A stretch of DNA of 64,000 nt. Origin: Pseudolabrys sp. (GTDB taxonomy: Bacteria; Pseudomonadota; Alphaproteobacteria; Rhizobiales; Xanthobacteraceae). The stretch covers positions 248,001 through 312,000 of the forward strand of contig JAFIGS010000017.1 in assembly GCA_017849615.1 (NCBI GenBank). The letters run 5' to 3'. The notes under the pieces were generated by a model. It saw only the letters and a list, made by a program, of their open reading frames with translations, was not told the origin of the DNA and made no database searches. Shown here one piece after another: positions 30,105 through 53,113 of this stretch (positions are counted from its first letter, which is position 1; every line of letters starts with the position of its first letter). Position numbers and translations under genes: made by a program.

Positions 30105-30122
30105 TGTTTTAAGATTGAAACA
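30105..30122. promoter_or_regulatory. Shared palindromic operator, site 1 (iorAB promoter)
   Basis: TGTTTTAAGATTGAAACA, two 8-bp half-sites (TGTTTTAA and, inverted, TGTTTCAA) around GA. It is the most diverged member of the five-site family with consensus TATTTTAR-NN-YTAAAATA. It lies 100 nt upstream of the IorA start. Confidence 0.6.
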
Positions 30123-30222
30123 ATTCCAGGGCCGGTCGGGCCGTGGAAAATGCCGCGAGGCCGGCTCCGCCGCCGCCGCTTGAAAGAGGCCGGCGCGCCG
30201 CCTTCGGGCCTGGAGCCTGAGA

Positions 30223-32373
30223 ATGGCCGAGCGCTCGTTTGCCAGGGAAGTTCAGGACCTCGAACTCGGCGAAGGCCAGGAGTTCCGGGGCGAAGGCATT
30301 CTCGCGCTGACCAAGGCCCTGCTGCAGTCCGGCGTCGCCTATGTCGGCGGCTATCAGGGCTCGCCGATCTCCCACCTGATGGACGTTCTCTCCGACGCGC
30401 AGGACCTGCTCGGCAAACTCGGGGTGCAGTTCTCCGCGTCCGCGTCCGAAGCCGCCGCCGCCGCCTCGCTGTCGGCGTCGATGATGTACCCGATCCGCGG
30501 CGCGGTGACCTTCAAGTCCACCGTCGGCACCAATGTCGCCTCGGACGCGCTGGCCAACCTCGCCTCCTCCGGCGTCGTCGGCGGCGCGCTGATCATTCTG
30601 GGCGAGGATTACGGCGAAGGCTCCTCGATCATGCAGGAGCGCTCGCACGCCTTCGCCATGAAATCGCAGATGTGGCTGCTCGATCCGCGGCCCGACCTGC
30701 CGTCGATCGTCAAGGCGGTGGAAGACGGCTTCGAACTGTCGGAAGCCTCCAACACGCCGGTGATGCTCGAGGTGCGCGTGCGCTCCTGCCACGTCCACGG
30801 GTCCTTCATCGCCAAGGACAACAAGCGCCCGGCCTTCACGCTGCAACAGGCGCTGGACAATCCGGTCCGCGACGTCAATCGCATCGTGCTGCCGCCCGCC
30901 TCCTACATTCAGGAGAAGGAGAAGATCGAGAAGCGCTGGCCCGCCGCGGTCGAGTTCATCAAGAGCCGCAAGCTCAACGAATTCTTCGACGGCGACCTCA
31001 CCGATGTCGGCATCGCCGTTCAGGGCGGCATGTACAACGGCGTTATCCGCGCGCTGCAGCGGCTCGGCCTCGCCGATGTCTGGGGCGAGACGCGCATCCC
31101 GCTCTATGTGATGAATGTCGCCTACCCGCTGATCGACGACGAACTGACGCAGTTCTGCGTCGGCAAGCGCGGCGTGCTGATCGTCGAGGAAGGCCAGCCC
31201 GAGTATATCGAACAGGCGGTCAACACCATCCTGCGCCGCCGCGACATCCCGACCCGCATCTACGGCAAGGACGTTCTGCCGATGGCCGGCGAATACACCG
31301 CCGACGTCATGCTCAAGGGTGTGCGCGACTTCCTCTCGGCCGCGCTGCCGTCGGCGTTGTCGGATGCCAGCCGCGCGCCGAACGTGCCGGCCATTGCCGA
31401 TGATCCGCGCGTCAAGGCGCTCACCGGCGTGGTGCCGCCGCGCCCACCGGGCTTCTGCGTCGGCTGTCCCGAGCGCCCGATCTTCGCCGCGGTGAAGCTG
31501 GTCGAGAAGGAGCTCGGTCAGCATCACATCGCCGCCGATATCGGCTGCCACCTGTTCTCGATCCTGCCGCCGTTCAATATCGGCGCTTCGACCATGGGCT
31601 ACGGCCTCGGCCCCGCGTCGGCGGCGGCGTTCAACGTGCCCTCGTCGAAGAAGTCGATCTCCTTCATCGGCGACGGCGGCTTCTGGCACAACGGCCTGAC
31701 CACCAGCATCGGCAACGCCGTCTACAACAAGCACGACGGCGTCATCGTCGTCGTCGACAATTATTACGCCTCGGCGACCGGCGGCCAGGACATCCTGTCC
31801 TCGCGCGCCGACAACGCCACGCGCTCGACGCAGCATCCGATCACCAAGGCCGTCGAAGGCATCGGCGCCACCTGGGTGCGCCAGGTCGATCGCACCTACG
31901 ACGTTGGCAAGATGCGCGACACATTGAAGGAAGCGCTCACCGACCGCTCGCCCGGCCCGAAAGTCATCGTCGCTTCGTCCGAGTGCATGCTCAACAAGCA
32001 GCGCCGCGAGAAGCCGCTGTTCAACAAGGCGGTGAAGGACGGCCAGCGCATGGTGCGCGAGCGCTACGGCGTCGATGAGGATGTCTGCACCGGCGACCAC
32101 GCCTGCATTCGTCTTTCCGGCTGTCCGTCGCTGACTATCAAGCACAGCGACGATCCCTTGAAGGACGATCCGGTGGCCGCCGTGGACAATGGCTGCGTCG
32201 GCTGCGGCAATTGCGGCGAGGTCGCGGAAGCCGCGGTGCTGTGTCCGTCGTTCTACCGCGCCGAGATCATCCACAACCCGACCGGCTTCGATCGCCTCAT
32301 GGCGCGTCTGCGCGGCGCGGTGATCGGCTTCCTGCAGCGCCGCCGCGCCCGCCACGCGCTTGCCCTTTCCTGA
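30223..32373 (+). CDS. iorA: Indolepyruvate ferredoxin oxidoreductase, alpha subunit
   Basis: A 716-residue thiamine-diphosphate enzyme that oxidatively decarboxylates aryl pyruvates to aryl-acetyl-CoA. Residues ~20-200 are the pyrimidine-binding domain (YVGGYQGSPISHLMDVL); FCVGCPERPIF precedes the TPP-binding domain with GDGGFWHNGLTTSIGN and a closing VVVDNYYASATGGQ. Near the C-terminus, CVGCGNCGEVAEAAVLCPS is a complete 4Fe-4S motif, while the preceding CTGDHACIRLSGCPSL has only three Cys, so the first cluster may be altered. It stands behind palindromic operator site 1. GGAGCCTGAG precedes ATG 30223. Confidence 0.9.
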   Translation: MAERSFAREVQDLELGEGQEFRGEGILALTKALLQSGVAYVGGYQGSPISHLMDVLSDAQDLLGKLGVQFSASASEAAAAASLSASMMYPIRGAVTFKSTVGTNVASDALANLASSGVVGGALIILGEDYGEGSSIMQERSHAFAMKSQMWLLDPRPDLPSIVKAVEDGFELSEASNTPVMLEVRVRSCHVHGSFIAKDNKRPAFTLQQALDNPVRDVNRIVLPPASYIQEKEKIEKRWPAAVEFIKSRKLNEFFDGDLTDVGIAVQGGMYNGVIRALQRLGLADVWGETRIPLYVMNVAYPLIDDELTQFCVGKRGVLIVEEGQPEYIEQAVNTILRRRDIPTRIYGKDVLPMAGEYTADVMLKGVRDFLSAALPSALSDASRAPNVPAIADDPRVKALTGVVPPRPPGFCVGCPERPIFAAVKLVEKELGQHHIAADIGCHLFSILPPFNIGASTMGYGLGPASAAAFNVPSSKKSISFIGDGGFWHNGLTTSIGNAVYNKHDGVIVVVDNYYASATGGQDILSSRADNATRSTQHPITKAVEGIGATWVRQVDRTYDVGKMRDTLKEALTDRSPGPKVIVASSECMLNKQRREKPLFNKAVKDGQRMVRERYGVDEDVCTGDHACIRLSGCPSLTIKHSDDPLKDDPVAAVDNGCVGCGNCGEVAEAAVLCPSFYRAEIIHNPTGFDRLMARLRGAVIGFLQRRRARHALALS

Positions 32374-32383
32374 CGGCGCGCCC

Positions 32384-33928
32384 ATGAACGCCGCCCCCGC
32401 AACGACCGCGCTCGATACGACAAAGCCGCTCGCCATCGCCGTACTCGCCATGGGCGGTCAGGGCGGCGGCGTGCTGGTCGACTGGATCGTTTCCCTTTGC
32501 GAGGCCCATGGCTGGGCCGCGCAATCGACCTCGGTGCCCGGCGTCGCGCAGCGCACCGGCGCCACGATCTATTACATCGAGGCGTTGCCGCTGCCGCCGA
32601 ATGCGCCGCCCGGCCTCAAACCCGTGCTGTCGCTGATGGCCGTACCCGGCGAAGTCGATATCGTCATCGGCGCCGAGTTCATGGAAGCCGGCCGCGCCAT
32701 CCAGCGCGGGCTGGTGACACCCGACCGCACCACGCTGATCGCCTCGTCGCACCGCGCCTATGCCGTTGTGGAAAAGCAGACGCCCGGCGACGGCATCGGC
32801 GATGCCGCCACCATGCTCAAGGCGGCCGAAGCCACCGCCAAGAAGCTCGTCGCCTTCGACATGGCAGCCGTCGGCGACAAGACCGGCAGCGCCATCTCAG
32901 CCGTATTGTTCGGCGCGCTGGCCGGGGCCGACGCCCTGCCCTTCGCGCGCGAAGCCTATGAAGCGACTATCCGCGCCGCCGGCGTTGGCGTCGAGCCGAG
33001 CCTGCGCGGCTTCGCCGCCGGCTACGAGCGCGCCAAGGCCGGGCCACCGCTCGAGATCACGCCGCCGCCGAAGAAGACCGTCGCCGCGCCGAATGCACCG
33101 CAAGGCGACTACGCCAAGCTTATCGCCCGGGCGCAGACCGAATTTCCGGCCGAGACGCAGGCGATGCTCGCTGCCGGGCTACAGCGCGTCGTCGATTTCC
33201 AGGACGTGGCCTATGGCGGCGAATATCTTGACCTCGTCAAAGGCATCCTCGCCCTGGATCGCGTCGACCGTGGCCACGCTCTGACGGCGGCGGCCACCAA
33301 ATACATCGCCGTCGCCATGGCCTATGACGACGTCTATCGCGTTGCCGACCTGAAAACGCGCGCCAGCCGCTTCGAGCGCGTGCGCAAGGAAGTCGGCGTC
33401 GCACCGGATCAGCTCGTCTACACCACCGAGTTCATGCATCCGCGCATGGACGAAGTCGCCGGCTCGCTGCCGAAGGCGCTCGGCCACTTCATCGAAGTAC
33501 GCCCCGGTCTTTTCAAGGCGCTCGACAAATTCGTCAATCGCGGCCGCCGCGTGCGCACCGGCACCATTCGCTGGTTCCTGATGCTGTACATTCTCGGCGG
33601 GCTGAAGCGCTTCCGCCGCGGCACGTTGCGTCACGCCAACGAAGTGGTGCATCGCGATGCCTGGCTGGCGCGGGTGCGGGACGCCGCGGCGAAAGACTAC
33701 GACCTCGCCGTCGAGCTTCTCAACAATCGCCGTCTGGTCAAAGGCTATTCCGACACCCATACGCGCGGGCTGTCGAAGTTCGACCGCGTCATGACCGCCG
33801 CCAATAAGCTCGAGGGCCGGCCCGACGCCGCCGAATGGGTGCGCCGCCTGCGTGAGGCCGCGCTCAAGGATGAGGAAGGCGTGGCGCTCGACGGTGCGCT
33901 CAAGACCGTCGACAGCTTCCTGCACTAG
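32384..33928 (+). CDS. iorB: Indolepyruvate oxidoreductase beta subunit fused to a DUF6537-type domain
   Basis: About 514 residues. Residues ~15-210 are the gamma/beta domain of 2-oxoacid:ferredoxin oxidoreductases (LAMGGQGGGVLVDWI, TSVPGVAQRTGATIYYIE); the C-terminal ~280 residues (PAETQAMLAAGLQRVVDFQD, YGGEYLD, FRRGTLRHANEVVHRDAWL) match the extra domain found on IorB of aerobic bacteria. Free-standing IorB is only ~200 residues. ATG 32384 was chosen 10 bp after the IorA stop over an ATG inside IorA. It converges with the SDR gene, 3 bp apart. Confidence 0.87.
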   Translation: MNAAPATTALDTTKPLAIAVLAMGGQGGGVLVDWIVSLCEAHGWAAQSTSVPGVAQRTGATIYYIEALPLPPNAPPGLKPVLSLMAVPGEVDIVIGAEFMEAGRAIQRGLVTPDRTTLIASSHRAYAVVEKQTPGDGIGDAATMLKAAEATAKKLVAFDMAAVGDKTGSAISAVLFGALAGADALPFAREAYEATIRAAGVGVEPSLRGFAAGYERAKAGPPLEITPPPKKTVAAPNAPQGDYAKLIARAQTEFPAETQAMLAAGLQRVVDFQDVAYGGEYLDLVKGILALDRVDRGHALTAAATKYIAVAMAYDDVYRVADLKTRASRFERVRKEVGVAPDQLVYTTEFMHPRMDEVAGSLPKALGHFIEVRPGLFKALDKFVNRGRRVRTGTIRWFLMLYILGGLKRFRRGTLRHANEVVHRDAWLARVRDAAAKDYDLAVELLNNRRLVKGYSDTHTRGLSKFDRVMTAANKLEGRPDAAEWVRRLREAALKDEEGVALDGALKTVDSFLH

Positions 33929-33931
33929 CCG

Positions 33932-34660
33932 TCAAATCACGATCGAGCCGACGCTCGAGCCGCCGCAGACGAACAAGGTCTGCCCGGTGACGAACGAGTT
34001 CGCCGGATCGGCGAAGAACAGAACGGCGCGGGCGACGTCGTCGCTGCGGCCGAGCCGCTTCACCGGGATCGCCGCCGCCAGACTCTGCTCGCGCGGATCG
34101 CCGACCGGGATGACGCCACGAAACATCTCGGTGTCGCCGATCGGTCCCGGCGCCACCGCGTTGACGGTGATGCCGGCTGGCGCCAGTTCCAGCGCCCAGC
34201 TCCGCACCAGGCCGACGACGCCGGCCTTGGTCGAGCCGTAAGCCGTGCGGTTGGCGAGGCCCAGCGCGCCGCGCGTTGACATCAGCACGATGCGGCCAAA
34301 AGCGCGCTCTTTCATGCCGGGCAGCACCGCTTGCGTGATGGTGAGCGCCGCGCCGAGGTGAAGCTGCGTCAGCGCCTGCAGATCCTCGATCTTGGTCTGT
34401 TCGATGCTCGCCGGCCGAATGGTGCCGGCATTGTGCACGACATGTGTCACGGCGAAGCGTTTCGCGACATCGGCGGCGGCCTGCGCTACCGCGTTGTTGT
34501 CCAGCAAATCGACCTCGACGCCGTGGAGTTTTGCAGCAGCATCCTTCGGCTTCTGCCGATCGAACACGACGACCTCATAGCCCGCGCCGAGCAGTTGCCG
34601 CGCGATCTCGGCGCCGATGCCGGATGCGCCGCCGGTGACGATAGCGGTGTTGCCGCTCAT
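33932..34660 (-). CDS. Short-chain dehydrogenase/reductase
   Basis: A 242-residue classical SDR with NAD(P) motif TGGASGIGAE, NAG (VVHNAGTIRPA), catalytic Ser (RIVLMSTRGALG) and YGSTK, then APGPIGDTEMF. All catalytic residues are intact, unlike the SDR domain two genes upstream. ATG 34660 overlaps the cyclase stop by ATGA; earlier in-frame codons are antisense to the cyclase. It is the last gene of the Rieske operon and probably oxidises a pathway alcohol. Confidence 0.88.
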   Translation of the reverse strand: MSGNTAIVTGGASGIGAEIARQLLGAGYEVVVFDRQKPKDAAAKLHGVEVDLLDNNAVAQAAADVAKRFAVTHVVHNAGTIRPASIEQTKIEDLQALTQLHLGAALTITQAVLPGMKERAFGRIVLMSTRGALGLANRTAYGSTKAGVVGLVRSWALELAPAGITVNAVAPGPIGDTEMFRGVIPVGDPREQSLAAAIPVKRLGRSDDVARAVLFFADPANSFVTGQTLFVCGGSSVGSIVI

Positions 34661-35448
34661 GCCGCCTCCACCAGCGCCAGCACGCGCAGCGGACTGCCCG
34701 AGCCGTTCTTGATCTTGAGCGGCGCCGAGAAGATCACCGCGCCCTTCGGCGGCAGTTGATCGAGATTGGTCAAGCACTGCAAACCGAAGCGGCCCTTGCC
34801 GTGCATATAGAAGTGCGCCGGGAACGGCGGATTGAAGTGATGGCCCTGGCCGTGATCGGTGCCGATGGTCTCGGTGCCAAAGCCGTGCACGTCGCGCTCT
34901 TCCACCAGCCACTTCACCGCTTCGGGCACCGGGCCCGGCGTATGCGCGCCATCCTCGCGCATGCCGGCATATTCGGCATAAGACTTCTTCGACCAGTCGG
35001 TGCGCAGCAGCACCCACTCTCCGGCGCCGATGCGGCCGTGCTTCTTCTCCCAGGCTTCGAGAAACGGCACGGTCAATTCGAAGTCGGCATTGACCGCGCT
35101 CTCGGCCGAGCAATCCACCACATTGGCCGGCGCGATGAACTTGCGCGGATCGATGGTGTCGACGGCGTTGTTCGGCAGATCCTTGCCGGAGATCCAGTGG
35201 ATCGGCGCATCGAAATGCGTGCCGGCGTGTTCGGACACCGAGAAGTTGTTCCAGTACCAGGCCGGCCCGCGCTCGTCGTAGCGCGAGATTTCCTCGAGGC
35301 GGAACGGCGCCGCCTGCCCGAATTCAGGCGGCAGCACGATGGTCGGGAATTCCTGGGTCAATGTCTGCGTGAGATCGACCACCTTGATCGCACCGGACGC
35401 AACGCGCTGCGCCATGCCGAGAAGGTCGGAAGCCGGAGTGGTCGCCAT
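34657..35448 (-). CDS. Cyclase/kynurenine formamidase-like metal hydrolase
   Basis: A 263-residue member of the cyclase family. The metal motif HAGTHFDAPIHW (HxGTHxDxPxH) is clear, with GTETIGTDHGQGH near the C-terminal metal-binding end and FYMHGKGRFGLQCLTNLDQL. Family members hydrolyse N-formylkynurenine, isatin or lactone/amide bonds. Its position among Rieske oxygenase and CoA-thioester genes suggests it opens a ring or ester made by the oxygenase; the substrate is unknown. GGAGGACAGC lies at the expected ribosome binding distance on the minus strand. Confidence 0.85.
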   Translation of the reverse strand: MATTPASDLLGMAQRVASGAIKVVDLTQTLTQEFPTIVLPPEFGQAAPFRLEEISRYDERGPAWYWNNFSVSEHAGTHFDAPIHWISGKDLPNNAVDTIDPRKFIAPANVVDCSAESAVNADFELTVPFLEAWEKKHGRIGAGEWVLLRTDWSKKSYAEYAGMREDGAHTPGPVPEAVKWLVEERDVHGFGTETIGTDHGQGHHFNPPFPAHFYMHGKGRFGLQCLTNLDQLPPKGAVIFSAPLKIKNGSGSPLRVLALVEAA

Positions 35449-35457
35449 GCTGTCCTC

Positions 35458-36699
35458 CTATCCTGCTAGTTCGCGCTCGAGCGCCTTCGGATTGGCGGCG
35501 AGTCGTGCGCGAACATCCTCGGCGATATCGCCGACGAACACATCCTCCAGGCCGCGCTGCAGCGCCTGCACCACGGCCTTCGCCAACGCCGCCGGCGTCA
35601 CCTTCGGCGGCGGTACGATCTGGAACCATTCGGTGTCGAGCGGGCCGAAGAACACGTTCATCACGCGCACGCCGCCGGAACGCAATTCGGCGCGCAGGCA
35701 TTGCGCGGCCGACAGCGAGGCCGCCTCCGCCGCCGAATAGGCGCCGTATTGCGGCCAGTTCATCAGCGCATGCACCGACAACAGGTTGACGAAGGCCGTC
35801 GCCGAGTTGACGCCGTCGGCGCCGCGGCCGCGCATCGCCGGACCGAAGGCCTGCGCCAGGCGCATCAGGCCCAGGTAACGCACGTCCATCTCCTCGCGCG
35901 CCACCGTGACGCCGTGTCGCTGCATGATACCGCCGGCGCGAATGTGCTCGGCGGTGTTGACGACGATGTCGATGCGGCCGCCATTCTGCTCGGCCTGCTC
36001 GGTCACGGACTCAGAGTCGGTGACGTCGAGCGGCACGATCTCGACGCGTTCGATCTTCCTCAGCTCGTCCTGTCCGGGAAACGGCTTCCACGGATCGGCG
36101 ATGCCGACGAAAACGATGTTGCAGCCGGCGTCCGAAAAAGCCCTGGCCATCGCCTGCCCGACCGGCGTGCGGCCGTCGGTGATCAGGACACGGCGGAACT
36201 TCGGATCGCAGGTCATTTCGCGCAGATGCGGATCGTCGGCCATGTTGGGTGTGTCTTTCTCCGGCAGCGCAATCATCACCGGCGCGCCGCCTTTGTCGAG
36301 CTTGAGATCGAGACGGACGCGCTGGCCTTCCAGCACGTCGCCATGGATGTGCGACAGAATGACCGGGCCGGCATCGAGTTTGGTCAGGCCCACGCGCCAG
36401 GGCGTGCGCTCGCGAAAGTAAGGATCGGTCGAGGTCCGGATCGTGGTCTCGGCGAGCAGCGTACCGCGATTGTCGACCGTCTTGAAGGGCAGGCGCTCCG
36501 ACAGGCATGTCGGGCAGGCGTCGCGCGGCGGATAGAACACCGTGCTGCAATCGTCGCAGGTCTGCAGTTCGAAACGACCCGCCGCCGCCGCCTTGGTCAG
36601 CCCATGCGCCGTGCGGCTGCGGATCGACTGCGGATAAAGCGGCTGCTGGGTGCGCTTGAGCGGGTCCTTGCGCCTGGGGCGTTTGAGCGGCTCGGTCAT
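35458..36699 (-). CDS. DUF35 Zn-ribbon/OB-fold protein fused to an SDR domain
   Basis: A 413-residue fusion. Residues ~40-160 are a DUF35 unit: zinc ribbon C48, C51, C62, C65 (CDDCSTVFYPPRDACPTC) and an OB fold (GTLLAETTIRTSTDPYF, VILSHIHGD). Residues ~168-413 are an SDR domain with TDGRTPVGQ as the nucleotide loop, S308 and Y321, but the catalytic Lys is E325 (YSAAEAAS). DUF35 proteins are partners of thiolase-fold enzymes, as in Ltp2-ChsH2, and this gene overlaps the thiolase-fold gene by ATGA. The SDR half may be a dead structural domain or may bind a ligand without dehydrogenase activity. Confidence 0.85.
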   Translation of the reverse strand: MTEPLKRPRRKDPLKRTQQPLYPQSIRSRTAHGLTKAAAAGRFELQTCDDCSTVFYPPRDACPTCLSERLPFKTVDNRGTLLAETTIRTSTDPYFRERTPWRVGLTKLDAGPVILSHIHGDVLEGQRVRLDLKLDKGGAPVMIALPEKDTPNMADDPHLREMTCDPKFRRVLITDGRTPVGQAMARAFSDAGCNIVFVGIADPWKPFPGQDELRKIERVEIVPLDVTDSESVTEQAEQNGGRIDIVVNTAEHIRAGGIMQRHGVTVAREEMDVRYLGLMRLAQAFGPAMRGRGADGVNSATAFVNLLSVHALMNWPQYGAYSAAEAASLSAAQCLRAELRSGGVRVMNVFFGPLDTEWFQIVPPPKVTPAALAKAVVQALQRGLEDVFVGDIAEDVRARLAANPKALERELAG

Positions 36700-37889
36700 G
36701 ACGCCCTCGCCAGCACGGCGGCGCCCGACGACAGGCCTCGGTCATAATTGATCATGCCGAAGCCGGAGACGACGGCGATCTTCGCGTCCTTCACCGGCTT
36801 GCCGATCGGCTGGTCGGTCAATTGCCGCATCGCTTCGGTGATGCCGAGGTGGCCGCCGGCGGCGCCCGCCTGCCCGGTCGACAGTTGTCCGCCCGAGGTG
36901 TTGTGCGGGAACGTGCCGTCGGTGGTGAAGGTGTGCTGGCGGATGAAGTCCTTGCCCTCGCCCTTGTTGCAGAAGCCGAGATCCTCGAACTGCATGGTAA
37001 TGATCACCGGATAATCATCGTAGGTCTGCAACAGATCGACGTCATCGGGCTTCACGCCGGCCATCTGCCACAGGTCATCGACATCCACCGCCCAGCCGCC
37101 GCGCACCTGGATCGGGTCATCGGCAAAGGCATTGTGGCGCTCGATGGTGGACAGCAACTTCACCGCGGGCAGCCTGAGCGACTTGGCCACGTCCTCACGG
37201 CAGACCAGGAACGCCTCGGCGCCGGCACACGGCATGACGCAGTCGAACAGATGCAGCGGATCGGAAATCGGCCGCGCCTTCATGTATGCGTCCAGCGTCA
37301 GCTTCTTCTTCATCATGGCGAACGGGATCGACAGCGCGTTGTCCCGTTGCGCAACGCAGATCTTGCCGAAATCCTCGCGCGTCACGCCATATTTGTTCAT
37401 GTAGTTCTTGGTGATCAGCGCGAAGGAGGCATTGGCGCCGCCGGAGCCGTAAGGATAGACCGCATCCTGCGCGAAGCGTGAGAACGACGACAAGGTCTTG
37501 CGGAAGGAATCGACGTGGTTGGTGTCGCCGGCGACCACGGTGACGAACTGCGCATCGCCATTCTGCACCGCGCGCGCGGCACGGCGCAGGCCGACCACGC
37601 CGCTCACCCCGCCCATCGGCACATGATCGAGCCAGCGCGGCGACAGGCCAAGATGCTGCGTCATGCCGACGGCGCTGTCGGCGCCGGTGGTGAAGCTCGA
37701 CAGCACCAGGCCGTCGATATCCTTCGGCGCGATGCCGGCCGTCTTCGTCAGTTGATGCAGCGCGCGGCCGATCCACCAATGCGCGGTGTCGGTCGAATAA
37801 CGCACATAAGGCACCGTCACCGGCGCGCAGACGACGACGTTGTCATAGGGAAGACGGGCGTTTCCTTGTGGGTCCTTCAAAGCACCCAT
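36696..37889 (-). CDS. Thiolase-fold protein without catalytic Cys/His; candidate acyl-CoA retro-aldolase
   Basis: A 397-residue thiolase-superfamily (SCP-x/lipid-transfer type) protein. The nucleophile-loop CASG reads GVSG (94-97), so Cys is absent, and the C-terminal GHPxGA motif reads GQAGAA (339-344), so His is absent; NTSGGQLSTG and LLQTYDDYPVIITMQ (Tyr290) remain. This pattern, with a DUF35 partner, is that of Ltp2-type aldolases that cleave 3-hydroxyacyl-CoA-like substrates, so claisen-type thiolysis is unlikely. ATG 37889 overlaps the oxygenase beta-subunit stop. An inactive or structural role remains possible. Confidence 0.82.
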   Translation of the reverse strand: MGALKDPQGNARLPYDNVVVCAPVTVPYVRYSTDTAHWWIGRALHQLTKTAGIAPKDIDGLVLSSFTTGADSAVGMTQHLGLSPRWLDHVPMGGVSGVVGLRRAARAVQNGDAQFVTVVAGDTNHVDSFRKTLSSFSRFAQDAVYPYGSGGANASFALITKNYMNKYGVTREDFGKICVAQRDNALSIPFAMMKKKLTLDAYMKARPISDPLHLFDCVMPCAGAEAFLVCREDVAKSLRLPAVKLLSTIERHNAFADDPIQVRGGWAVDVDDLWQMAGVKPDDVDLLQTYDDYPVIITMQFEDLGFCNKGEGKDFIRQHTFTTDGTFPHNTSGGQLSTGQAGAAGGHLGITEAMRQLTDQPIGKPVKDAKIAVVSGFGMINYDRGLSSGAAVLARAS

Positions 37890-38371
37890 CACATGAACAA
37901 CTGGATGTTGCCGAAGGCCGCCTCGCAATTGACGAGGTCGACGCGCTTCAGCTTGATCTTCAGCACGCCGTCGACCAGGACCAGCGTATGCGTGGCCCAG
38001 GCGGCGTAAAGCTGCTGCTCGTCCTGGCGGGTTTCGATGTAGTGCATCGGCGTCCAGGTGACGTATTCGCCCTTGGCGTCGTCGCGGCCGTCGATCTGCG
38101 GCGTCTGCAGAACGTGGTGGCAGCGGCTCTTCGGCTTCTGCGAGAAGGTACGGTTGCCCTTGAGCCGCTCGACGCGGATCTGCAGCAGCAGCTTGTCCTC
38201 GTACATCAGCGAGCCGACCAGCTTGGGATCGGTCTGGCCCCACTCCAGCGGCATCCAGTAATAGGAGTCGTCGGTGTACAGGGCGAGCCACTCCTCGAAG
38301 CGGTGCTGGTCGAGCAGCCTCGCCTCGTGGATGACGAAATCGATGATCTCTTTGTCGGTCGGGCTGGTCAT
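37889..38371 (-). CDS. Aromatic-ring-hydroxylating dioxygenase beta subunit
   Basis: A 160-residue small subunit of a Rieske oxygenase (NTF2-like fold): IIDFVIHEARLLDQHRFEEW, LALYTDDSYYWMPLEW and the C-terminal KLKRVDLVNCEAAFGNIQLF are characteristic. It has no cofactor and shapes the hexamer. It lies 10 bp after the alpha-subunit gene and overlaps the thiolase-like gene by ATGA. Confidence 0.9.
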   Translation of the reverse strand: MTSPTDKEIIDFVIHEARLLDQHRFEEWLALYTDDSYYWMPLEWGQTDPKLVGSLMYEDKLLLQIRVERLKGNRTFSQKPKSRCHHVLQTPQIDGRDDAKGEYVTWTPMHYIETRQDEQQLYAAWATHTLVLVDGVLKIKLKRVDLVNCEAAFGNIQLFM

Positions 38372-44648: not shown

Positions 44649-44687
44649 GCAACGAACCCTCTATCGCGGCGATTTGAGCACATCACC

Positions 44688-45731: not shown

Positions 45732-47497
45732 GCCGCCAGATCACCATCGCGATCGGCGCCGTCGCGCTCCTCGCGCTGCTCGGGGCGCCGCTCTACCTCG
45801 CGCCGTTCTCGATCACGCTGCTCAACTATATAGGCGTCTACTCGCTGGTCGCGCTCGGCCTCGTCCTGCTGACCGGCAATGCGGGCATGGTGTCGTTCGG
45901 CCAGGCTTCCTTCATGGGCGTTGCCGCCTACGCCACGGCATGGACCTCGTCGGTCATGGGCTTCTCGCCATGGCTCGGCCTGATCCTGGCGCTGGTCGCG
46001 ACCGGGCTCATCGCCGCCATTCTCGGCGCGGTGACCTTGCGTCTCGGTGGTCACTTCCTGTCGCTGAGCACGATCGCCTGGGGCCTCGCGATCTATTTCA
46101 GCTTCGGCAACATCCCGGGGCTGGGCGCATTTGACGGCCTCTCGTCCCTGCCGCCGATCTCGATCGGCGGCATCGCGCTCGTGGACAGCGGGCAGATCTT
46201 CTACATGATCTGGGGCACGCTGCTGCTGACGATGCTGGCCATTCACAATCTGCTCGACTCCCGCGTCGGCCGCGCGCTGCGGGCGCTGCGCGGCGGCAAC
46301 ACGCTGGTGGAATCGCTCGGCGTCAACGCGCTGCAGATCCGCCTCGTCACCTTTGTCATCGCCGCGCTGTGCGCCGCCTTGTCCGGATGGCTCTACGCGC
46401 ATATGGGCCGCTTCGTTTCCCCGACGCCGTTCGACGTCACCATGAGCATCATCTTCCTGATGATGGCGATGATCGGCGGCTCCGGCTACCTGCTCGGCGC
46501 CGTTCTCGGCGCGGCCATCATCATCCTGCTCAAGAACGGCATCCAGGACGTGCTGCCGAAGATCGCGCCCGGCTCGTCCGGCCAGCTCGAAGTCGTGGTC
46601 TTCGCTTCCCTGTTCATCCTGTTCCTGCAGCGTGCGCGCAACGGCATCGTGCCTTTCATCGCGCAGTGGATTCCCGAACCCCGCCGCGAGCGGCCACCGC
46701 AGGCCGAGCTGCTGCCACGCCAGCCGCAACCGGCGAAGGAAACCGCTCTCATGCAGGTCGACGCGGTGACCCGCCGCTTCGGCGGCCTGATCGCGGTCAA
46801 CGATGTCAGCTTCGATGTCCGCGCCGGCGAGATCCTGGCGCTGATCGGCCCGAACGGCGCCGGCAAGACCACGATGTTCAATGTCATCACCGGCGCGCTG
46901 CGTCCCAGCGCCGGGCGCATCACCTTCGCCGGCAAGGACATCACCGGCGCCAACGCCGCGAAGATCGCCGCCGCCGGCATCGCCCGCACCTTCCAGCACG
47001 TCAAGCTGCGGCCGAAGATGACGCTGATCGACAACGTGCTGCTCGGCACCTATGGCCGCACCAAGGCCGGCTTCATCAGGAGCGCGCTGCGCCTCGATCG
47101 CGCCGAGGAAGCCCGCGCGCGCCACGAGGCGATGAGGCAGCTCGAACGCGTCGGCCTCGGCGACCGCCCTTACGAACTCGCCGGCAACCTGCCGCTCGGC
47201 AATCAGCGCGTTCTTGAAATCGCCCGCGCGCTCGCCGCCGACCCGGTTCTGCTGGTGCTCGACGAGCCGGCCGCCGGCCTGCGCCGTCAGGAGAAGCTGG
47301 CGCTCGCCGAACTGCTGCGCACCTTGCGCGCCGAGGGCCTCACCATCCTGCTCGTCGAGCACGACATGGACTTCGTGATGGGTCTCGTCGACCGCATCGT
47401 CGTCATGGAGTTCGGCTGCAAGCTGTGCGAGGGCGAGCCGGCCAAGGTGCGCGCCGACGCTCGCGTACAGGAAGCCTATCTCGGAGGCGTCGCCTGA
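45728..47497 (+). CDS. LivM-LivG fusion: ABC permease joined to its ATPase
   Basis: A 589-residue fusion. Residues ~1-320 are a LivM permease (FGQASFMGVAAYATAW, RALRGGNTLVESLGVNALQI, GGSGYLLGAVLGAA); after a linker (EPRRERPPQAELLPRQPQP), residues ~340-589 are a LivG ATPase with Walker A GPNGAGKTTMFNVITGAL, Q-loop GIARTFQHVKL, signature LPLGNQRVLEIARALAADP and Walker B LLVLDEPAAGL. The fusion is known in alphaproteobacteria. ATG 45728 overlaps LivH; the open frame upstream is LivH read-through. Confidence 0.9.
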   Translation: MSRQITIAIGAVALLALLGAPLYLAPFSITLLNYIGVYSLVALGLVLLTGNAGMVSFGQASFMGVAAYATAWTSSVMGFSPWLGLILALVATGLIAAILGAVTLRLGGHFLSLSTIAWGLAIYFSFGNIPGLGAFDGLSSLPPISIGGIALVDSGQIFYMIWGTLLLTMLAIHNLLDSRVGRALRALRGGNTLVESLGVNALQIRLVTFVIAALCAALSGWLYAHMGRFVSPTPFDVTMSIIFLMMAMIGGSGYLLGAVLGAAIIILLKNGIQDVLPKIAPGSSGQLEVVVFASLFILFLQRARNGIVPFIAQWIPEPRRERPPQAELLPRQPQPAKETALMQVDAVTRRFGGLIAVNDVSFDVRAGEILALIGPNGAGKTTMFNVITGALRPSAGRITFAGKDITGANAAKIAAAGIARTFQHVKLRPKMTLIDNVLLGTYGRTKAGFIRSALRLDRAEEARARHEAMRQLERVGLGDRPYELAGNLPLGNQRVLEIARALAADPVLLVLDEPAAGLRRQEKLALAELLRTLRAEGLTILLVEHDMDFVMGLVDRIVVMEFGCKLCEGEPAKVRADARVQEAYLGGVA

Positions 47498-48219
47498 TGG
47501 CCCTGCTCTCCATCCAGAACGTCAGCGTCAGCTACGGCAAGGCCGAAGCCGTGCGCAACGTGTCACTCGAGGTCGATCGCGGCCAGATCGTCACCGTGAT
47601 TGGCCCCAACGGCGCCGGCAAGACCAGCCTCCTGACCAGCGTCATTGGCATGATCCCCGCCGCCGGCCGCGTCATCTTCGACGGCACCGACATCACCGCG
47701 CTGCCGACCGAAGACCGCATCGAAATGGGCTTCTGCCTGGTGCCGGAGCGGCGCGAGCTGTTCGCCGACATGTCCGTCTACGACAACCTGCTGCTTGGCG
47801 CCTATACGCGCCGCGACGGCTCGGCGGCGATCAAGGCGTCGATGGAGGAAGTCTATGGCCGCTTCCCGCGCCTTCGCGAGCGCCGCGCGCAGAAGGCCGG
47901 CACATTGTCCGGCGGCGAGCGGCAGATGCTCGCGCTCGGCCGCGCGCTGATGGCCAAGCCGAAGCTGCTGATGCTCGACGAGCCGAGCCTTGGTCTTGCG
48001 CCGCTCATCACCCGCGAAATCTTCAAGATCATCGCCTCGCTGCATGAGACCGGCGTGTCGATCCTGCTGGTCGAGCAGAATGCGCGCGCTGCGCTCGAAA
48101 CTGCCGGCTTCGGCTATGTCATGGAGACCGGCGAGATCGTGCACTCCGGCTCGTCCGCAACGCTCATCGACGATCCGCGTTTGATCTCCACCTATCTTGG
48201 CGGCGGCGCCAGTCACTGA
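47497..48219 (+). CDS. ABC transporter ATP-binding protein, LivF family
   Basis: A 240-residue ATPase: Walker A GPNGAGKTSLLTSVIG, GFCLVPERRELFADMSVYDN, signature LSGGERQMLALGRALMAKP, Walker B LLMLDEPSLGLAP, H-loop LLVEQNARAALE. ATG 47497 shares one base with the stop of the LivM-LivG gene (TGATG). It completes the second Liv importer. Confidence 0.9.
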   Translation: MALLSIQNVSVSYGKAEAVRNVSLEVDRGQIVTVIGPNGAGKTSLLTSVIGMIPAAGRVIFDGTDITALPTEDRIEMGFCLVPERRELFADMSVYDNLLLGAYTRRDGSAAIKASMEEVYGRFPRLRERRAQKAGTLSGGERQMLALGRALMAKPKLLMLDEPSLGLAPLITREIFKIIASLHETGVSILLVEQNARAALETAGFGYVMETGEIVHSGSSATLIDDPRLISTYLGGGASH

Positions 48220-48269
48220 TCGCCCCGGTCGCGGCCGGGGCGATGCCCGATCGACCATGCGAGGGCTCC

Positions 48270-49478
48270 ATGACCGACATCTCGATCCCTTACGGCGCCT
48301 ATTGGGCAAGTCCCTTCGCCAAGTGGCAGGGCTCGCTGGCGCATCTGCATTCGCTGCGCCTTGCCGCGCATGTGACTAGGCACGCGCTCGCCAAGCGCAA
48401 CATCGCGCCGGACGTCTTCGACTTCGGCGTATTCGGCACCACGGTGCCGCAGAAAGGCGCGTTCTATGGCCTGCCCTGGCTGATGGGCGAGGCCGGCGCC
48501 GAACATGTCGGCGGCCCGACCATCAACCAGGCCTGCGCCACCGGCGTTCGCATCATGGAAGCGGCGACCTCGGAGATCGCCGCCGGCCGCGCCAAAGTCG
48601 CGCTGGCGGTCGCCGGCGATCGCACCTCGAACGGCCCGCACATCTATTATCCGTCGCCCAACGCCGCCGGCGGCACCGGCGAGCACGAAAACTGGGTGCT
48701 CGATAATTTCATGCGCGATCCTTACGCCAAACTGGCGATGGTCGAGACCGCCGAGAATGTCGCGCGCAAGCACAATGTCGGCACCGCCGAGCAGAACGCC
48801 GTCACCATGCGCCGCTACGAGCAATATGCCGAGGCGACCGCGAATGACTCGGCCTTCCTGCGCCGCTTCATGGAACTGCCCTTCGAGGTGCCGGACGAGC
48901 GCTTCGCCAAGACCGTCGGCCAGCTCAAGGGCGACGAAGGCGTGCACCCCACCACGGCCGACAAGCTCGCGGCGCTCAAGCCGGTGATGCCGGGCGGCAC
49001 CGTCACCTACGGCACGCAGACCCATCCCGCCGACGGCATGGCCGCCATCGTCATCACCACCGCCGAGCGCGCTTGCGACCTGTCCAGCGATCCCGATATC
49101 GACATCCGCATCCTCAGCTTCGGCCAGGCCCGCGTCGATCGCGGCTACATGCCGGAAGCGCCGGTGCCGGCGGCGCGCGCCGCGCTCGACCGCGCCGGCA
49201 TCGCCGCGTCCGATCTCGCCGCGATCAAGTCGCACAACCCGTTCGTCATCAACGACATCGTTTTCGCCCGCCACTTCAATCTCGACGTCATGGGCATGAA
49301 CAATTACGGCTGCTCGCTGGTCTGGGGCCATCCGCAAGGCCCGACCGGCGTGCGCGGCGTCATCGAACTGATCGAGGAGTTGGTGATGCGCGGCGGCGGC
49401 CTCGGCCTGTTCCAGGGCTGCGCCGCCGGCGACACCGCCATGGCCGTCGTGCTGTCCGTCACCGACCGGCGGCGCTGA
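48270..49478 (+). CDS. Thiolase / acetyl-CoA acetyltransferase family
   Basis: A 402-residue thiolase with intact catalytic residues: C89 in NQACATGVRIMEAA, His in WGHPQGPTG, and the second Cys in GLFQGCAAGDTA. It can therefore cleave or form 3-ketoacyl-CoA, unlike the thiolase-fold gene at 36.7 kb. GAGGG lies 5 bases before ATG 48270; an earlier ATG at 48243 is less likely. It sits 50 bp after LivF in the same operon. Confidence 0.88.
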   Translation: MTDISIPYGAYWASPFAKWQGSLAHLHSLRLAAHVTRHALAKRNIAPDVFDFGVFGTTVPQKGAFYGLPWLMGEAGAEHVGGPTINQACATGVRIMEAATSEIAAGRAKVALAVAGDRTSNGPHIYYPSPNAAGGTGEHENWVLDNFMRDPYAKLAMVETAENVARKHNVGTAEQNAVTMRRYEQYAEATANDSAFLRRFMELPFEVPDERFAKTVGQLKGDEGVHPTTADKLAALKPVMPGGTVTYGTQTHPADGMAAIVITTAERACDLSSDPDIDIRILSFGQARVDRGYMPEAPVPAARAALDRAGIAASDLAAIKSHNPFVINDIVFARHFNLDVMGMNNYGCSLVWGHPQGPTGVRGVIELIEELVMRGGGLGLFQGCAAGDTAMAVVLSVTDRRR

Positions 49479-49482
49479 TCCC

Positions 49483-51006
49483 GTGACCGCTGCGCCCGTC
49501 CCCACCGTCGTTCACATGCTCGCGGCGGCGGCGGCCGCGGCGCCGGATCGCGAGGCCCTGCGCTGCGGCGATGAGACTTTGAACTACCGCGATTACGCGT
49601 CTTGCGTCGCCGGCTTCGCCGCCGAACTCGCCGCCGCTATCGGCCCCGGCGTCGCCCAATCGCGCATCGCCGTGGTGATGGCCAATTCGATCGACACCGC
49701 CATCGCCATCTACGCCGTGGCGGCGACCGGCGCGCAACTGGTGCCGCTGAATCCGGCCTATACCGCGCACGAGCTCGGGCCGATCCTCAGCGATGCTGAT
49801 CCTGCGCTCATCGTCTTCGACGTCATGCTCGAAGGCATAGTGCGAGAATTGGCGGCGCGCATCGGCGTCGCGCGCCTTGTCGCCATCGGCGGCGACAAAC
49901 GCCTCACCGCCTGGCGCGGCGCGGGCCGCGCCATCGACAGCTTCCCCGAGCCCGACAGCCTCGGCCTGCTGCAATATACCGGCGGCACCACCGGCCGCTC
50001 CAAGGGCGTCGATCTCACGCATCGCGCCGTCGCCACCAATGTATCGCAGCGCGATGCTCTGCTGCCGAGCGAAGATGGCGAGCGCATCCTCGCTGTGACG
50101 CCGCTCTATCACTCCTACGCCATGGCGATGGGGCTGCATCTGGCCAGCCATTGCCGCGGCACACTCGTCCTGCTGCCGCGCTATCACCCGAAAGACGTGC
50201 TCGCTCTCATTGCCCGCGAGCGCATCACCCTCTTCGCCGGCAGCCCCACTCTGTTCACCGGCCTGATGGGCCACGCCGATTTCGCGCGCACCGATTTCTC
50301 GTCGCTGAAGCTGTGCTTCTCCGGCGCCTCGGCGCTGCCGGTCGAAACCTTGAGGCGCTGGGAAGACGCCACCGCCTGCGGCATTTGCGAGGGCTACGGC
50401 CAGACCGAAGCCGGCCCGGTGCTGACCTACAATCCGCGTCACGGCCTGCGCAAGGTCGGCTCGGTCGGCACCGTGCTGCCATGGACCGAGGTCCAGATCG
50501 TCGATGTCGAGACCGGCACGCAAGTGCTGCTGGTCGGCGACGCCGGCGAAGTGCGCGCCCGCGGCCCGCAGATCATGAGCGGCTACCGCAACCGTCCGGA
50601 GGAAACCGCCGCCGCGTTGCGCGACGGCTGGCTCTACACCGGCGACATCGGCGCCTTCGACGAGGACGGCTATCTCTTCATCCGCGACCGTAAGAAAGAC
50701 ATGGCCATCGTCGGCGGCTTCAACGTCTATCCGCGCGAGATCGAGGAAGTGCTGTGCGCGCACCCCGATATAGCCGAAGCCGCCGTTGTTGCCGTTGCAG
50801 ATGGCTATCGCGGCGAAGCCTTGCACGCCTATGTGACGCTGAAGGACAATGCCGGCGCCGATGCCGAGAGCCTGCTCGATTATCTCAAGGAGCGGCTGAC
50901 CAAATACAAGGTGCCGGCCCGCATCGACACCAGCGGCGCCATCCCCAAGACCGGCGTCGGCAAGATCGACAAGGTGGCGCTGCGCGCGGCGGCTGCTAAC
51001 GCCTGA
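49483..51006 (+). CDS. AMP-forming acyl-CoA synthetase (GTG start)
   Basis: A 507-residue adenylate-forming ligase, shorter than the one at 41.6 kb and from a different branch. LLQYTGGTTGRSKGVDLTH is the P-loop, GYGQTEAGPVL the A5 block, GWLYTGDIGAFDEDGYLFI A7, DRKKDMAIVGGFNVYPREIE the hinge (long-chain/aryl type) and PKTGVGKIDKVAL the catalytic Lys block. GTG at 49483 follows the thiolase by 4 bp. It overlaps the convergent dehydrogenase gene by 11 bp. It probably activates a second acid or a chain-shortened product. Confidence 0.87.
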   Translation: MTAAPVPTVVHMLAAAAAAAPDREALRCGDETLNYRDYASCVAGFAAELAAAIGPGVAQSRIAVVMANSIDTAIAIYAVAATGAQLVPLNPAYTAHELGPILSDADPALIVFDVMLEGIVRELAARIGVARLVAIGGDKRLTAWRGAGRAIDSFPEPDSLGLLQYTGGTTGRSKGVDLTHRAVATNVSQRDALLPSEDGERILAVTPLYHSYAMAMGLHLASHCRGTLVLLPRYHPKDVLALIARERITLFAGSPTLFTGLMGHADFARTDFSSLKLCFSGASALPVETLRRWEDATACGICEGYGQTEAGPVLTYNPRHGLRKVGSVGTVLPWTEVQIVDVETGTQVLLVGDAGEVRARGPQIMSGYRNRPEETAAALRDGWLYTGDIGAFDEDGYLFIRDRKKDMAIVGGFNVYPREIEEVLCAHPDIAEAAVVAVADGYRGEALHAYVTLKDNAGADAESLLDYLKERLTKYKVPARIDTSGAIPKTGVGKIDKVALRAAAANA

Positions 51007-51982
51007 CCACCGGCGGCTTGGCCAGCCCCATCTGATCCAGCGCGCGCAGGAAAGCCGAAAGCCGTTCGCGCCTATAGGCCGCCACATCCATGGTCGAGAA
51101 ATCGTAGAAGCCCTTGCCGTCGCGCAGGCCGTTGCGGCCCGCCGCCATGTTGTCCTTGACGATCTGCGGCGCCTCGAAGCGGTCGCTCTTCATCGCATCG
51201 GTCATGTAGCGGCTGGCGTAGAACAGGATGTCGCCGCCGCCCCAGTCGATGAATTCGAGCAGACCGAGAATGGCGAAACGGAAGCCGAAGCCGTATTTCA
51301 CCGCCTTGTCGATATCCTCGGCGGAGGCGACGCCCTCTTCCACCAGCCGCGCCGCCTCGTTCATGGCCAGCGCCTGGATGCGCGGCACGATGTAACCGGG
51401 CGAGGCCTTGCACTCGACCGGCACCTTGCCGATCGATCCCAGCACCGCCTTGAACTCGGCCATCACGCCACGGTCGGTGTCGTCGGTGGCGCTGAGTTCG
51501 ATCAGCGGCACGATAAAGGCCGGGTTGAGCCAGTGCGCATTGAGGAAGTGGCTCGGCCGCTTGCTGTAGCCGGACAGTTCGGTCGAGAGAAATGTCGAGG
51601 TGGTCGAGGCGATGATGGCGTCCTTGGCCGCCACCTTGTCGATCACCGCAAAGGCCTCGCTCTTGGCGTCCACCGTTTCCGGCACCGCCTCGAAGATGAT
51701 GCGCACGCCGTCGAGGCCCGCCCCGATCTCGTCGAAGCCGTAATAGGACACGCGCGCCATGATCGGATCGATATCGGCCGCGTTAAAACCGCCGATATCC
51801 GCCACCGATTTCAGCGAGGCGCGGATTTCGCGCTCGCAATCGGCGAACAGGCGCTTCTGGCCATCCTTGTCGCGCGGCTTGCCGTCGATCAGACGGACAT
51901 CATGCCCGGCATAGGCGAAGGCATGGGCGATGCCGCGGCCCATGCGGCCGGCGCCGACGCAGGCGATCACCGGCGCGCTCAT
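50996..51982 (-). CDS. 3-hydroxyacyl-CoA dehydrogenase
   Basis: A 328-residue NAD-dependent dehydrogenase of the HCDH family. Rossmann motif VIACVGAGRMGRGIAHAFAY, catalytic region SHFLNAHWLNPAFIVPLIEL (His-Glu), KASPGYIVPRIQALAMNEAA and the C-terminal DKAVKYGFGFRFAILGLLEF. It would oxidise a 3-hydroxyacyl-CoA, giving a substrate for the thiolase at 48.3 kb. ATG 51982 overlaps the upstream gene by ATGA. Confidence 0.87.
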   Translation of the reverse strand: MSAPVIACVGAGRMGRGIAHAFAYAGHDVRLIDGKPRDKDGQKRLFADCEREIRASLKSVADIGGFNAADIDPIMARVSYYGFDEIGAGLDGVRIIFEAVPETVDAKSEAFAVIDKVAAKDAIIASTTSTFLSTELSGYSKRPSHFLNAHWLNPAFIVPLIELSATDDTDRGVMAEFKAVLGSIGKVPVECKASPGYIVPRIQALAMNEAARLVEEGVASAEDIDKAVKYGFGFRFAILGLLEFIDWGGGDILFYASRYMTDAMKSDRFEAPQIVKDNMAAGRNGLRDGKGFYDFSTMDVAAYRRERLSAFLRALDQMGLAKPPVVRR

Positions 51983-53061
51983 CAGATGCCCTTTCCGAGC
52001 ATGGCGGAAAGGCTCTCGCGGCTTTCGCCGGCAAGGCCGAGCGTTTCCATGGTGCGGCCGGTCTTGCGGAAGTCATTGCCGCTCGCCGCCCCCGCGATGG
52101 CGAGAAGCCCGGCCGCCACCGGCGTCGGCACGCCCGCCCATTCGCCGAGCGAGACGATCAGGGCGAGACCCATGCCGACATCTTCCTGCAGGTAGCGATG
52201 CGTCTTCAGGTCGAGATGCTCGTGCCAGTCGCCGGAGTCGACCAGCTTGTCATGCGCGAGCTGGCCGTACATCCAGTTCGACGTCTTGTAGTGATCGGCC
52301 AGCGGAAAGTGCGGCGCCTTGTAGCCCAGCGCCTCGCGCAGCGCGATGCGCTCGGCGTCGAGCGCGTCGTGGACGCGCCGTACCGACGGCTGCGTGCCTT
52401 CCTTGTGAATGTCCCAGCGCGGGAAATGCTCGATCGGCGCCGCGCTCATGATGATCAGCGGCGGATGGATGATCGGCCCGGCATTCATCAGCGCGCCGGA
52501 CAGCGCGTCCTCCACCGGCTCGATGGCACCGGGGAACGCCGCGGAAATCACCTTGAGCGCCTTGTCGGTCAGCCGCGCCGGGAACACGCCGGTCGGCAGC
52601 CGCGTCGCGCGCGTCGTGATGGCGACTTCGTTCGGCCCGCGCTTGCGCGTCAGCCATGGCAGCGTGCCGGTTTCGGCGATGGCGACGTCTGCCTTGCAGC
52701 CTTTGGCGCGCAGCACCTTCATCATCAGATAGGAGCCGAAGGTGCCCGGCGGCAGATAGATGACCTGCCCGTCGGTCAGATGCGGCGCCAGCGCGGCCGC
52801 CAGATCCTCCTGCGCGAAGGCCGGCACCGGCGCGACGATCAGCTCGGCGCCGCGCACCGCTTCGCCGAGGTCCGTCGTCGGCTTGGCGATCCTGACGTCG
52901 CGCACGCCCTTGAAGTCGCGCACGGTGATGGCGCCGCTCTCCAGCACCGGCGCGAGCGCCGCCGCGTCACGCCGCCAGAAGCGGACCTCGTGCCCTGCTT
53001 CCGACATATCGACGGCCGCCGCGTAAGAGCCGTTGCCGCCACCTAGAACCGCGATCTTCAT
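51982..53061 (-). CDS. NAD/NADP octopine/nopaline dehydrogenase family protein
   Basis: A 359-residue protein with N-terminal MKIAVLGGGNGSYAAAVDMS, a central ETGTLPWLTRK block, and a C-terminal helical domain with DALSGALMNAGPIIHPPLII, typical of the opine dehydrogenase family. Opine dehydrogenases reductively join a keto acid to an amino acid or oxidise such adducts; many homologues in catabolic clusters have unknown substrates. GAGGG precedes ATG 53061 by about 7 bases on the minus strand. It heads a two-gene unit behind operator site 5. Confidence 0.83.
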   Translation of the reverse strand: MKIAVLGGGNGSYAAAVDMSEAGHEVRFWRRDAAALAPVLESGAITVRDFKGVRDVRIAKPTTDLGEAVRGAELIVAPVPAFAQEDLAAALAPHLTDGQVIYLPPGTFGSYLMMKVLRAKGCKADVAIAETGTLPWLTRKRGPNEVAITTRATRLPTGVFPARLTDKALKVISAAFPGAIEPVEDALSGALMNAGPIIHPPLIIMSAAPIEHFPRWDIHKEGTQPSVRRVHDALDAERIALREALGYKAPHFPLADHYKTSNWMYGQLAHDKLVDSGDWHEHLDLKTHRYLQEDVGMGLALIVSLGEWAGVPTPVAAGLLAIAGAASGNDFRKTGRTMETLGLAGESRESLSAMLGKGI

Positions 53062-53095
53062 AAGTTCACCCTCGCCGAAACGCCGCACCGGTAGA

Positions 53096-53113
53096 TATTT
53101 TAACCCTAAAATA
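53096..53113. promoter_or_regulatory. Shared palindromic operator, site 5 (opine dehydrogenase-like / HCDH unit)
   Basis: TATTTTAACCCTAAAATA; halves TATTTTAA and, inverted, TATTTTAG. It lies 34 nt upstream of the opine-dehydrogenase-like start on the minus strand and 154 nt from the divergent DUF454 gene. It is followed on the plus strand by ATTGCCGG, as at site 4. Confidence 0.7.

Follow-up and report, generated by a model that had tools for sequence, protein, structure and literature searches.

The closest described counterparts of the system considered here are the iad loci of Variovorax and Achromobacter, in which indole-3-acetic acid (IAA, auxin) is degraded under the control of the MarR-type regulator IadR. 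According to the published accounts, the Variovorax iad locus converts IAA to anthranilate, the operator described is one 24-bp site between iadR and iadA (PMC9613470), and the Variovorax iadDE genes are necessary and sufficient for IAA loss, with iorAB homologues present (PMC9613470, also PMC11630574). A related locus is described here from Pseudolabrys sp. (assembly GCA_017849615.1, denoted G000; 4.40 Mb in 35 contigs). It lies in a stretch of 64,000 nucleotides (contig JAFIGS010000017.1, positions 248,001 to 312,000, corresponding to C35:248001-312000), which is referred to as the window and to which coordinates refer unless a contig or locus is given. The subject is a set of five 18-bp palindromes in the window and the protein that may bind them, a MarR protein here called AbmR, which is encoded on contig C19 in a predicted 2-aminobenzoyl-CoA-monooxygenase-type (ABM) operon. 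The window locus is like the published systems in iorAB (iadAB), iadCDE and, as predicted here, MarR-type control; it differs in that no IadR gene was found and, compared by description, in having five putative locus operators instead of one 24-bp site. The candidate regulator here is moreover of another MarR type, encoded in the anthranilate operon, with sites also at the ABM operon and at two importers.

The PaaX-type regulator MeqR2 of Arthrobacter reportedly responds to anthraniloyl-CoA and would be the nearest known parallel to the release by ligand proposed below. Quinaldine degradation in Arthrobacter Rue61a, according to PMC3534580, involves two PaaX-related regulators, with anthraniloyl-CoA in anthranilate-grown cells; it resembles the present system in an upper pathway ending in anthranilate and a CoA-thioester lower pathway, and differs in its PaaX-type rather than MarR-type regulators, its actinobacterial plasmid and its upper pathway. 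CouR, a p-coumaroyl-CoA-responsive MarR repressor freed by the aryl-CoA of its own pathway (PMC4737184), is the working model for AbmR, although it serves another pathway and has weak similarity to AbmR (PDB entry 6c28, a CouR, E 4.8e-6). For Aromatoleum (Azoarcus) evansii, two very similar aerobic 2-aminobenzoate clusters are reported in a review, where regulatory genes are marked but unnamed in the legend of the cluster figure, and where the proposal is made that pathways of this kind are induced by the CoA thioester (PMC8388817). ABM homologues and the same palindrome are common to that genome and to the operon here, which includes a CoA ligase, an acyl-CoA dehydrogenase and an enoyl-CoA hydratase. 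MarR regulons over aromatic catabolism are an already known kind; in the openly accessible literature, mostly not in full text, no MarR regulator or operator was found for 2-aminobenzoyl-CoA operons. Iad loci may also contain a second MarR, IadR2 (MarR_50 in Variovorax, MarR_Bj2 in B. japonicum), which does not bind IAA, and for MarR_50 neither a ligand nor a DNA site was found, according to PMC9613470. By comparison, the present analysis proposes for the AbmR type both a DNA site and a class of ligand.

It appears quite probable that AbmR is a repressor of the IAA-to-anthranilate locus, the ABM operon and two importers, acting through about eight sites and released by anthraniloyl-CoA, where binding, repression and ligand are predictions. 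They draw on the sites, their conservation, the gene neighbourhoods and the absence of a local regulator gene, all as read from the sequence.

Palindromes in the window, the genome and related genomes

The five palindromes reported in the initial annotation are present, letter for letter, at 30105, 40694, 41570, 43293 and 53096. When both strands are searched with TATTTTARNNYTAAAATA at up to three mismatches, exactly five matches are obtained in the 64,000 bases, against a mean of 0.01 and a largest value of 1 in 100 shuffles. The same five, and no others, are recovered at scores of at least 12 by a matrix built only from 29 sites before ABM genes (the ABM-only matrix), so that the claim of no further copies in the window holds by either method. 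Because the window has a G+C content of 62-69%, 18-mers composed mostly of A and T are conspicuous in it. As had also been annotated, all five are intergenic, and one stands ahead of each of the five transcription units that gene directions delimit from 30.2 to 53.1 kb: iorAB; iadC-iadD-iadE with the genes that follow; a divergent racemase/CoA-ligase pair; a Liv-thiolase-ligase run; and a pair encoding an octopine-dehydrogenase-like protein (OctDH) and a 3-hydroxyacyl-CoA dehydrogenase (3HCDH).

Putative operator 1 (30105..30122, TGTTTTAAGATTGAAACA) lies 100 bp before iorA (iadA-like) and is the weakest of the five, with three mismatches to the consensus; in the relative G093 a letter-identical copy separates the MarR gene from iorA (L228:4411), and variants occupy the same place in L020 and L054. 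Conserved in these three relatives are also putative operators 2 (40694..40711, TATTTTAGGTCTAAAATA, before iadC), 3 (41570..41587, TATTTTAAGTTAGAAATA, between the divergent racemase-family and CoA-ligase genes) and 4 (43293..43310, CATTTTAAGATTAAAATA, before the Liv binding-protein gene), of which 2 and 4 overlap predicted -10 hexamers. Putative operator 5 (53096..53113, TATTTTAACCCTAAAATA, before the OctDH-3HCDH pair) is identical or has one change in G080, G081 and G093 and is also present ahead of OctDH in G082. In the last genome, three further palindromes occur on contig C187 (L192; 1725, 2752 and 4285) around an FAD-linked oxidase gene, a possible additional member of the regulon.

A scan of the whole genome had been proposed in the initial annotation as a check for random density of the motif, and its outcome does not overturn the regulon. 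With TATTTTANNNNTAAAATA at up to one mismatch, six sites are found and none with the reversed control pattern; they comprise three sites in the window together with C6:3066, C29:27796 and C19:100114, and all six precede related catabolic or importer genes. The site at 30105 matches this type only at three mismatches. The initial pattern (W at the ends, three mismatches) gave 50 matches against 51 for the control; most three-mismatch matches outside the clusters are therefore noise. C33:74298 (two mismatches, score 18) has no linkable gene and was excluded from the regulon.

The site C19:100114 precedes a gene for a monooxygenase/reductase fusion (NCBIfam PRK08255, score 1291.6, cut-off 1078), followed in the operon by genes for a short-chain dehydrogenase (SDR), the MarR protein, an enoyl-CoA hydratase, an acyl-CoA dehydrogenase and a benzoate-CoA-ligase-family protein. 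This gene set presumably fits aerobic 2-aminobenzoate (anthranilate) metabolism. The fusion enzyme is 55-56% identical over 200 residues to the products of both A. evansii ABM genes, and the combination expected of an abm operon, namely such a fusion with an aryl-CoA ligase, an acyl-CoA dehydrogenase and an enoyl-CoA hydratase, is found on C19. The operon is thus predicted to be of the ABM type, the assignment of its substrate being part of the prediction. C6:3066 is intergenic, with a Liv binding-protein gene on one side and, on the other, a cupin gene in divergent orientation. In three relatives (L194, L195 and L231) a Liv operon, a cupin gene, an FAD monooxygenase gene and the ABM operon are joined in a single block that has two sites; C6 and C19 thus appear to be parts of the same cluster, contiguous in relatives and probably separated here by an assembly break at the end of contig C6. 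An IS1595-type transposase gene is located near that contig end (L016:189-1136). C29:27796 precedes a TRAP importer, and the site is conserved in G093 (L230); in G105 a TRAP importer with the site lies close to the ABM operon (L234).

The use of the motif at ABM promoters was assessed in 80 family genomes, 38 of which had a match to the ABM N-terminus; of the 41 matches in total, the best 30 were taken with their flanks. A matrix built solely from the five sites of the window scores at least 15 before 29 of the 30 genes and in none of 30 within-gene 400-bp controls; at a score of 10 the numbers are 29 and 2. A matrix combining the sites of the window, C6, C29 and the iad loci, without any ABM-promoter site, reaches 13 in 29 and 20 in 25 of the 30 upstream regions (400 bp). 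The single miss has an upstream sequence that ends about 160 bp out at a contig edge. In all 29 ABM sites palindrome positions 4, 5, 7, 12, 14 and 15 are invariant. Under 200 palindromic permutations of the columns, the number of upstream regions reached was on average 4.67 (maximum 29; real matrix 29) at score 13 and 0.84 (maximum 22; real matrix 25) at score 20. The three best permutations recreate the same consensus, and the 165 permutations with no more than 6 of 9 arm positions matching it gave means of 3.21 (maximum 14) and 0.33 (maximum 3), respectively. AT-rich promoters therefore produce some background at score 13 and little at 20. The palindrome also precedes both ABM genes of A. 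evansii (L174, L177) and is present at the Achromobacter loci L175 and L176, and none was found at a remote ABM homologue (36%) in L178. Some ABM promoters (L223, L225, L151, L152, L158, L159 and L161) have a pair of palindromes at a spacing of 45-94 bp, which face an SDR or MarR gene in divergent orientation.

Across 40 genomes of the genus, 77 sites with up to one mismatch were counted against 11 for the control pattern (summed from the per-genome table). The seven genomes with an IadD match of at least 87% have 5-6 sites each, 37 in total, and the other 33, two of which hold an IadD relative of 70-72%, have 40. When one site per matching genome was fetched, 21 of the 23 new loci (L205-L227) had the site adjoining ABM, C6-type binding-protein, iad-cluster or TRAP genes; no query gene matched beside it in L215 and L220. 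The closest by iadD among the 40 genomes (97%), G093, holds all eight sites of the present genome and a local MarR gene in addition. G034 has the ABM cluster, the MarR gene and two sites with no IadD match, and hence the use of the site at ABM is independent of iad.

The MarR protein AbmR as candidate regulator

AbmR (P0001, 159 aa; G000:C19:96496-96975, minus strand) is a winged-helix MarR protein by Pfam (PF01047, E 6.1e-12; PF12802, E 7.7e-12). Its own operon carries C19:100114, one of eight sites in total at the putative target promoters, and a candidate for the regulator gene with its own copy of the site that the initial annotation had suggested looking for was thereby found. AbmR is 62% identical to the MarR protein of L054, whose gene is divergent from iorA, the palindrome lying in the gap, and the recognition-helix stretch LMVSNGNVTGIIDRL is common to both proteins. 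Both kinds of MarR gene occur in each of the genomes that hold L020, L054 and L019, and the one beside iorA is kept in G093, L020 and L054. ABM and an AbmR-type MarR occur together in 14 of 47 mapped loci.

No regulator was found among the open reading frames scanned within the cluster (30.2-53.1 kb), in agreement with the initial annotation. A search of this genome with the L054 MarR returned the C19 protein (62%) and nothing else above 35%; the C19 MarR is the sole AbmR-type protein found in it. Where relatives hold the local MarR gene, the window has an aconitase/LeuCD-type gene pair (28063-30095), with a gene end 9 bp before the 30105 site. This junction may be a rearrangement, a deletion or an assembly border. 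Recent loss of the iorA-side MarR would probably explain the missing local regulator, with an assembly fault as the alternative.

Relatives of the Rieske alpha gene iadD number at least 564 in GTDB species genomes, and the best 80 of these loci (72-95% identity, many from Bradyrhizobium and Achromobacter) served for comparison. By their MarR genes, 23 have the AbmR type, 32 the IadR type only, 19 neither, and 6 lie on short contigs. The ABM-only matrix scores at least 15 in all 23 loci of the AbmR type and in two of the six on short contigs; with the counts for the remaining loci given below, the motif is linked to AbmR-type genes strongly, not exclusively. In 12 Bradyrhizobium iad loci the AbmR-type gene follows iadE; for the protein of one of them (L031), 3boq is the best PDB match and 7kym is not matched. 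Judging from the position and type of the Bradyrhizobium gene, the IadR2 of the published work may correspond to the AbmR-type MarR found in other iad loci. A weak half-palindrome of the AATTTTAAGCAACAAGTA type recurs in many Achromobacter iad loci at a comparable position, which in L091 (L091:17583) is some 70 bp ahead of the gene for the Liv binding protein.

In a tree of the MarR proteins, a branch with 100/100 support sets the 32 IadR rows apart, without AbmR among them; AbmR is thus not grouped among IadR proteins. The rows from abm operons are intermixed with the AbmR-type rows from iad loci, which suggests repeated recruitment; the MarR protein encoded at 14.1 kb distorts this tree through its very long branch, and only the IadR split is used from it with confidence.

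Genes between the palindromes

The initial annotation did not name the pathway; the naming of the locus as auxin degradation is added here. The genes between the palindromes are assigned from their sequence as an iad-type locus for IAA degradation: the iadD/iadE dioxygenase and iadC occur together with iorAB (iadAB), a Liv importer and a CoA ligase, no IadR gene was found beside iadA among the open reading frames scanned, and mapping of the window proteins onto the 80 iad loci shows the core gene set recurring repeatedly. On the plus strand, iorA (iadA-like; 30223..32373) encodes an indolepyruvate ferredoxin oxidoreductase of the alpha type, a TPP enzyme (PF02775) present in many iad loci, and is followed by iorB (iadB-like; 32360..33928; PF01558, PF20169). 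The unit led by iadC is on the minus strand, with an iadC-like reductase having a 2Fe-2S domain (39717..40685; PF00175, PF00111), an iadD-like Rieske ring-hydroxylating alpha subunit (38382..39695; PF00355, PF00848) and an iadE-like beta subunit (37889..38371; PF00866). Then come a thiolase-like protein (36696..37880, start provisional; PF22691 on the open frame 36696-38291), a fusion of a ChsH2-type OB domain and an SDR by Pfam (35458..36699), a putative cyclase (34657..35448; PF04199, the family of isatin hydrolase) and, at the end of the run, an SDR (33932..34663, start provisional; Pfam on the open frame 33932-35113).

The divergent pair consists of an Asp/Glu/hydantoin racemase-family gene (40742..41515, minus strand; PF01177) and the gene for AMP-binding CoA ligase 1 (41606..43249, plus strand, start provisional; PF00501). 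Pfam further identifies, on the plus strand, the Liv-type ABC importer with its binding protein, two permeases and two ATPases (43494..48219), followed by a thiolase and CoA ligase 2 (48243..51006), and, on the minus strand, the 3HCDH and OctDH proteins (50996..53061, start codon from the sequence). Outside the cluster, a tRNA-Val call by ARAGORN (62264-62351, minus strand) lies inside a 1065-aa open frame and is probably spurious.

Proposed mechanism, alternatives and significance

Without inducer, AbmR dimers would sit on the approximately eight 18-bp sites, several of them over a -10 box, and would silence the IAA-to-anthranilate locus of the window (five sites), the ABM operon together with AbmR itself, the Liv importer of C6 and the TRAP importer of C29. 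Anthranilate, whether derived from IAA or imported, would be activated to anthraniloyl-CoA, and this thioester would free AbmR and turn on the whole route. The C19 copy alone would serve all sites here, whereas relatives have a second AbmR-type MarR beside iorA. Repression is the usual behaviour of MarR proteins, and it is on this habit and on the overlap of four of the eight sites (40694, 43293, C6 and C29) with predicted -10 boxes that repression is proposed. The ligand is predicted on the model of CouR and of the CoA-thioester inducer put forward in PMC8388817; salicylyl-CoA or another aryl-CoA may take its place.

Several observations weigh against this mechanism. No promoter match was found at the other four of the eight sites, and at up to two mismatches to TATTTTANNNNTAAAATA the genome scan yields seven sites (the seventh being 41570) against four for the control, a small excess. 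A site scoring at least 15 is present in 12 of the 19 iad loci with neither MarR type and in 13 of the 32 with IadR-type MarRs only, three of the latter being Aromatoleum loci that also have an ABM gene; IadR may read a related sequence. The genome has 37 matches to the MarR_2 domain, and those other than AbmR were set aside by identity. The NCBIfam label of the C19 enzyme is salicylyl-CoA 5-hydroxylase/oxidoreductase, so that the aryl-CoA could differ.

It is rather unlikely that AbmR controls the regulon by ordinary substrate induction, with IAA, free anthranilate or another early intermediate as inducer. According to PMC9613470, the Variovorax IadR binds and is released by IAA, and 3cdh, the second-best PDB match of AbmR, is IAA-binding. 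However, the best match of AbmR is 3boq (E 1.8e-24, against 7.3e-8 for the IAA-binding 7kfo), the IadR-type rows stand apart in the tree, and the AbmR-type MarR accompanies ABM in G034, in which iad is lacking. Occurrence of the palindrome in IadR-only loci would also be in keeping with control of the five window sites by another MarR of the genome, of the IadR type and sensing IAA, with AbmR reading the ABM sites only. This is very unlikely, because each of the two matrices, from window and from ABM sites, picks out the sites of the other set, and a search of the genome with one Achromobacter IadR gave no clear orthologue, the best match (27%) being itself closest to HpaR.

The initial annotation had ascribed the sites to a single dimeric regulator of the MarR, TetR or GntR kind and had offered the MarR gene at 14.1 kb as a candidate. 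A single dimeric MarR-type regulator is well supported at the five promoters; the TetR and GntR genes of the window have no site near them. Control by a regulator of the window itself, whether the 14.1-kb MarR or the GntR (27.1 kb), LysR (55.1 kb) or TetR (57.8 kb) proteins, would have in its favour that these are the nearest scanned regulator genes on the same contig, with their domains found, including a MarR domain in the 14.1-kb gene. It is nevertheless highly improbable, as the palindrome is confined in the window to the five sites and so stands beside none of these genes, and in relatives it is paired with an AbmR-type gene. The 14.1-kb protein, with a different helix sequence, is 22% identical to the iad MarR of relatives and at most 24% to any tree row; all four were rejected. 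That the palindromes are AT-rich promoter elements conserved for reasons other than being one regulator's operators has a nearly negligible probability: the overlap with -10-like hexamers at half of the eight sites would suit such elements, but both arms are kept, down to the invariant positions of the ABM sites, and nearly all sampled genus loci have the site beside linked genes, often with a MarR gene near.

A wider reading may be put forward, to which slightly less than an even chance is given: auxin breakdown would be switched by sensing anthraniloyl-CoA and not auxin, the repressor of an anthranilate operon having captured the auxin locus, perhaps several times and in separate lineages, by lending it gene and operator. 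In the present genome the local copy would then have been lost, the distal copy would run a regulon at three places of the genome, and IadR2 of plant-associated bacteria would be the same sensor. For IadR2, which is left without ligand or DNA site in the published work, a precise site and a ligand class are now proposed. Auxin-removing bacteria shape root growth. The regulon, if true, joins auxin degradation and the anthranilate pathway under one control; in some auxin degraders the inducer may then be anthranilate and not auxin itself.

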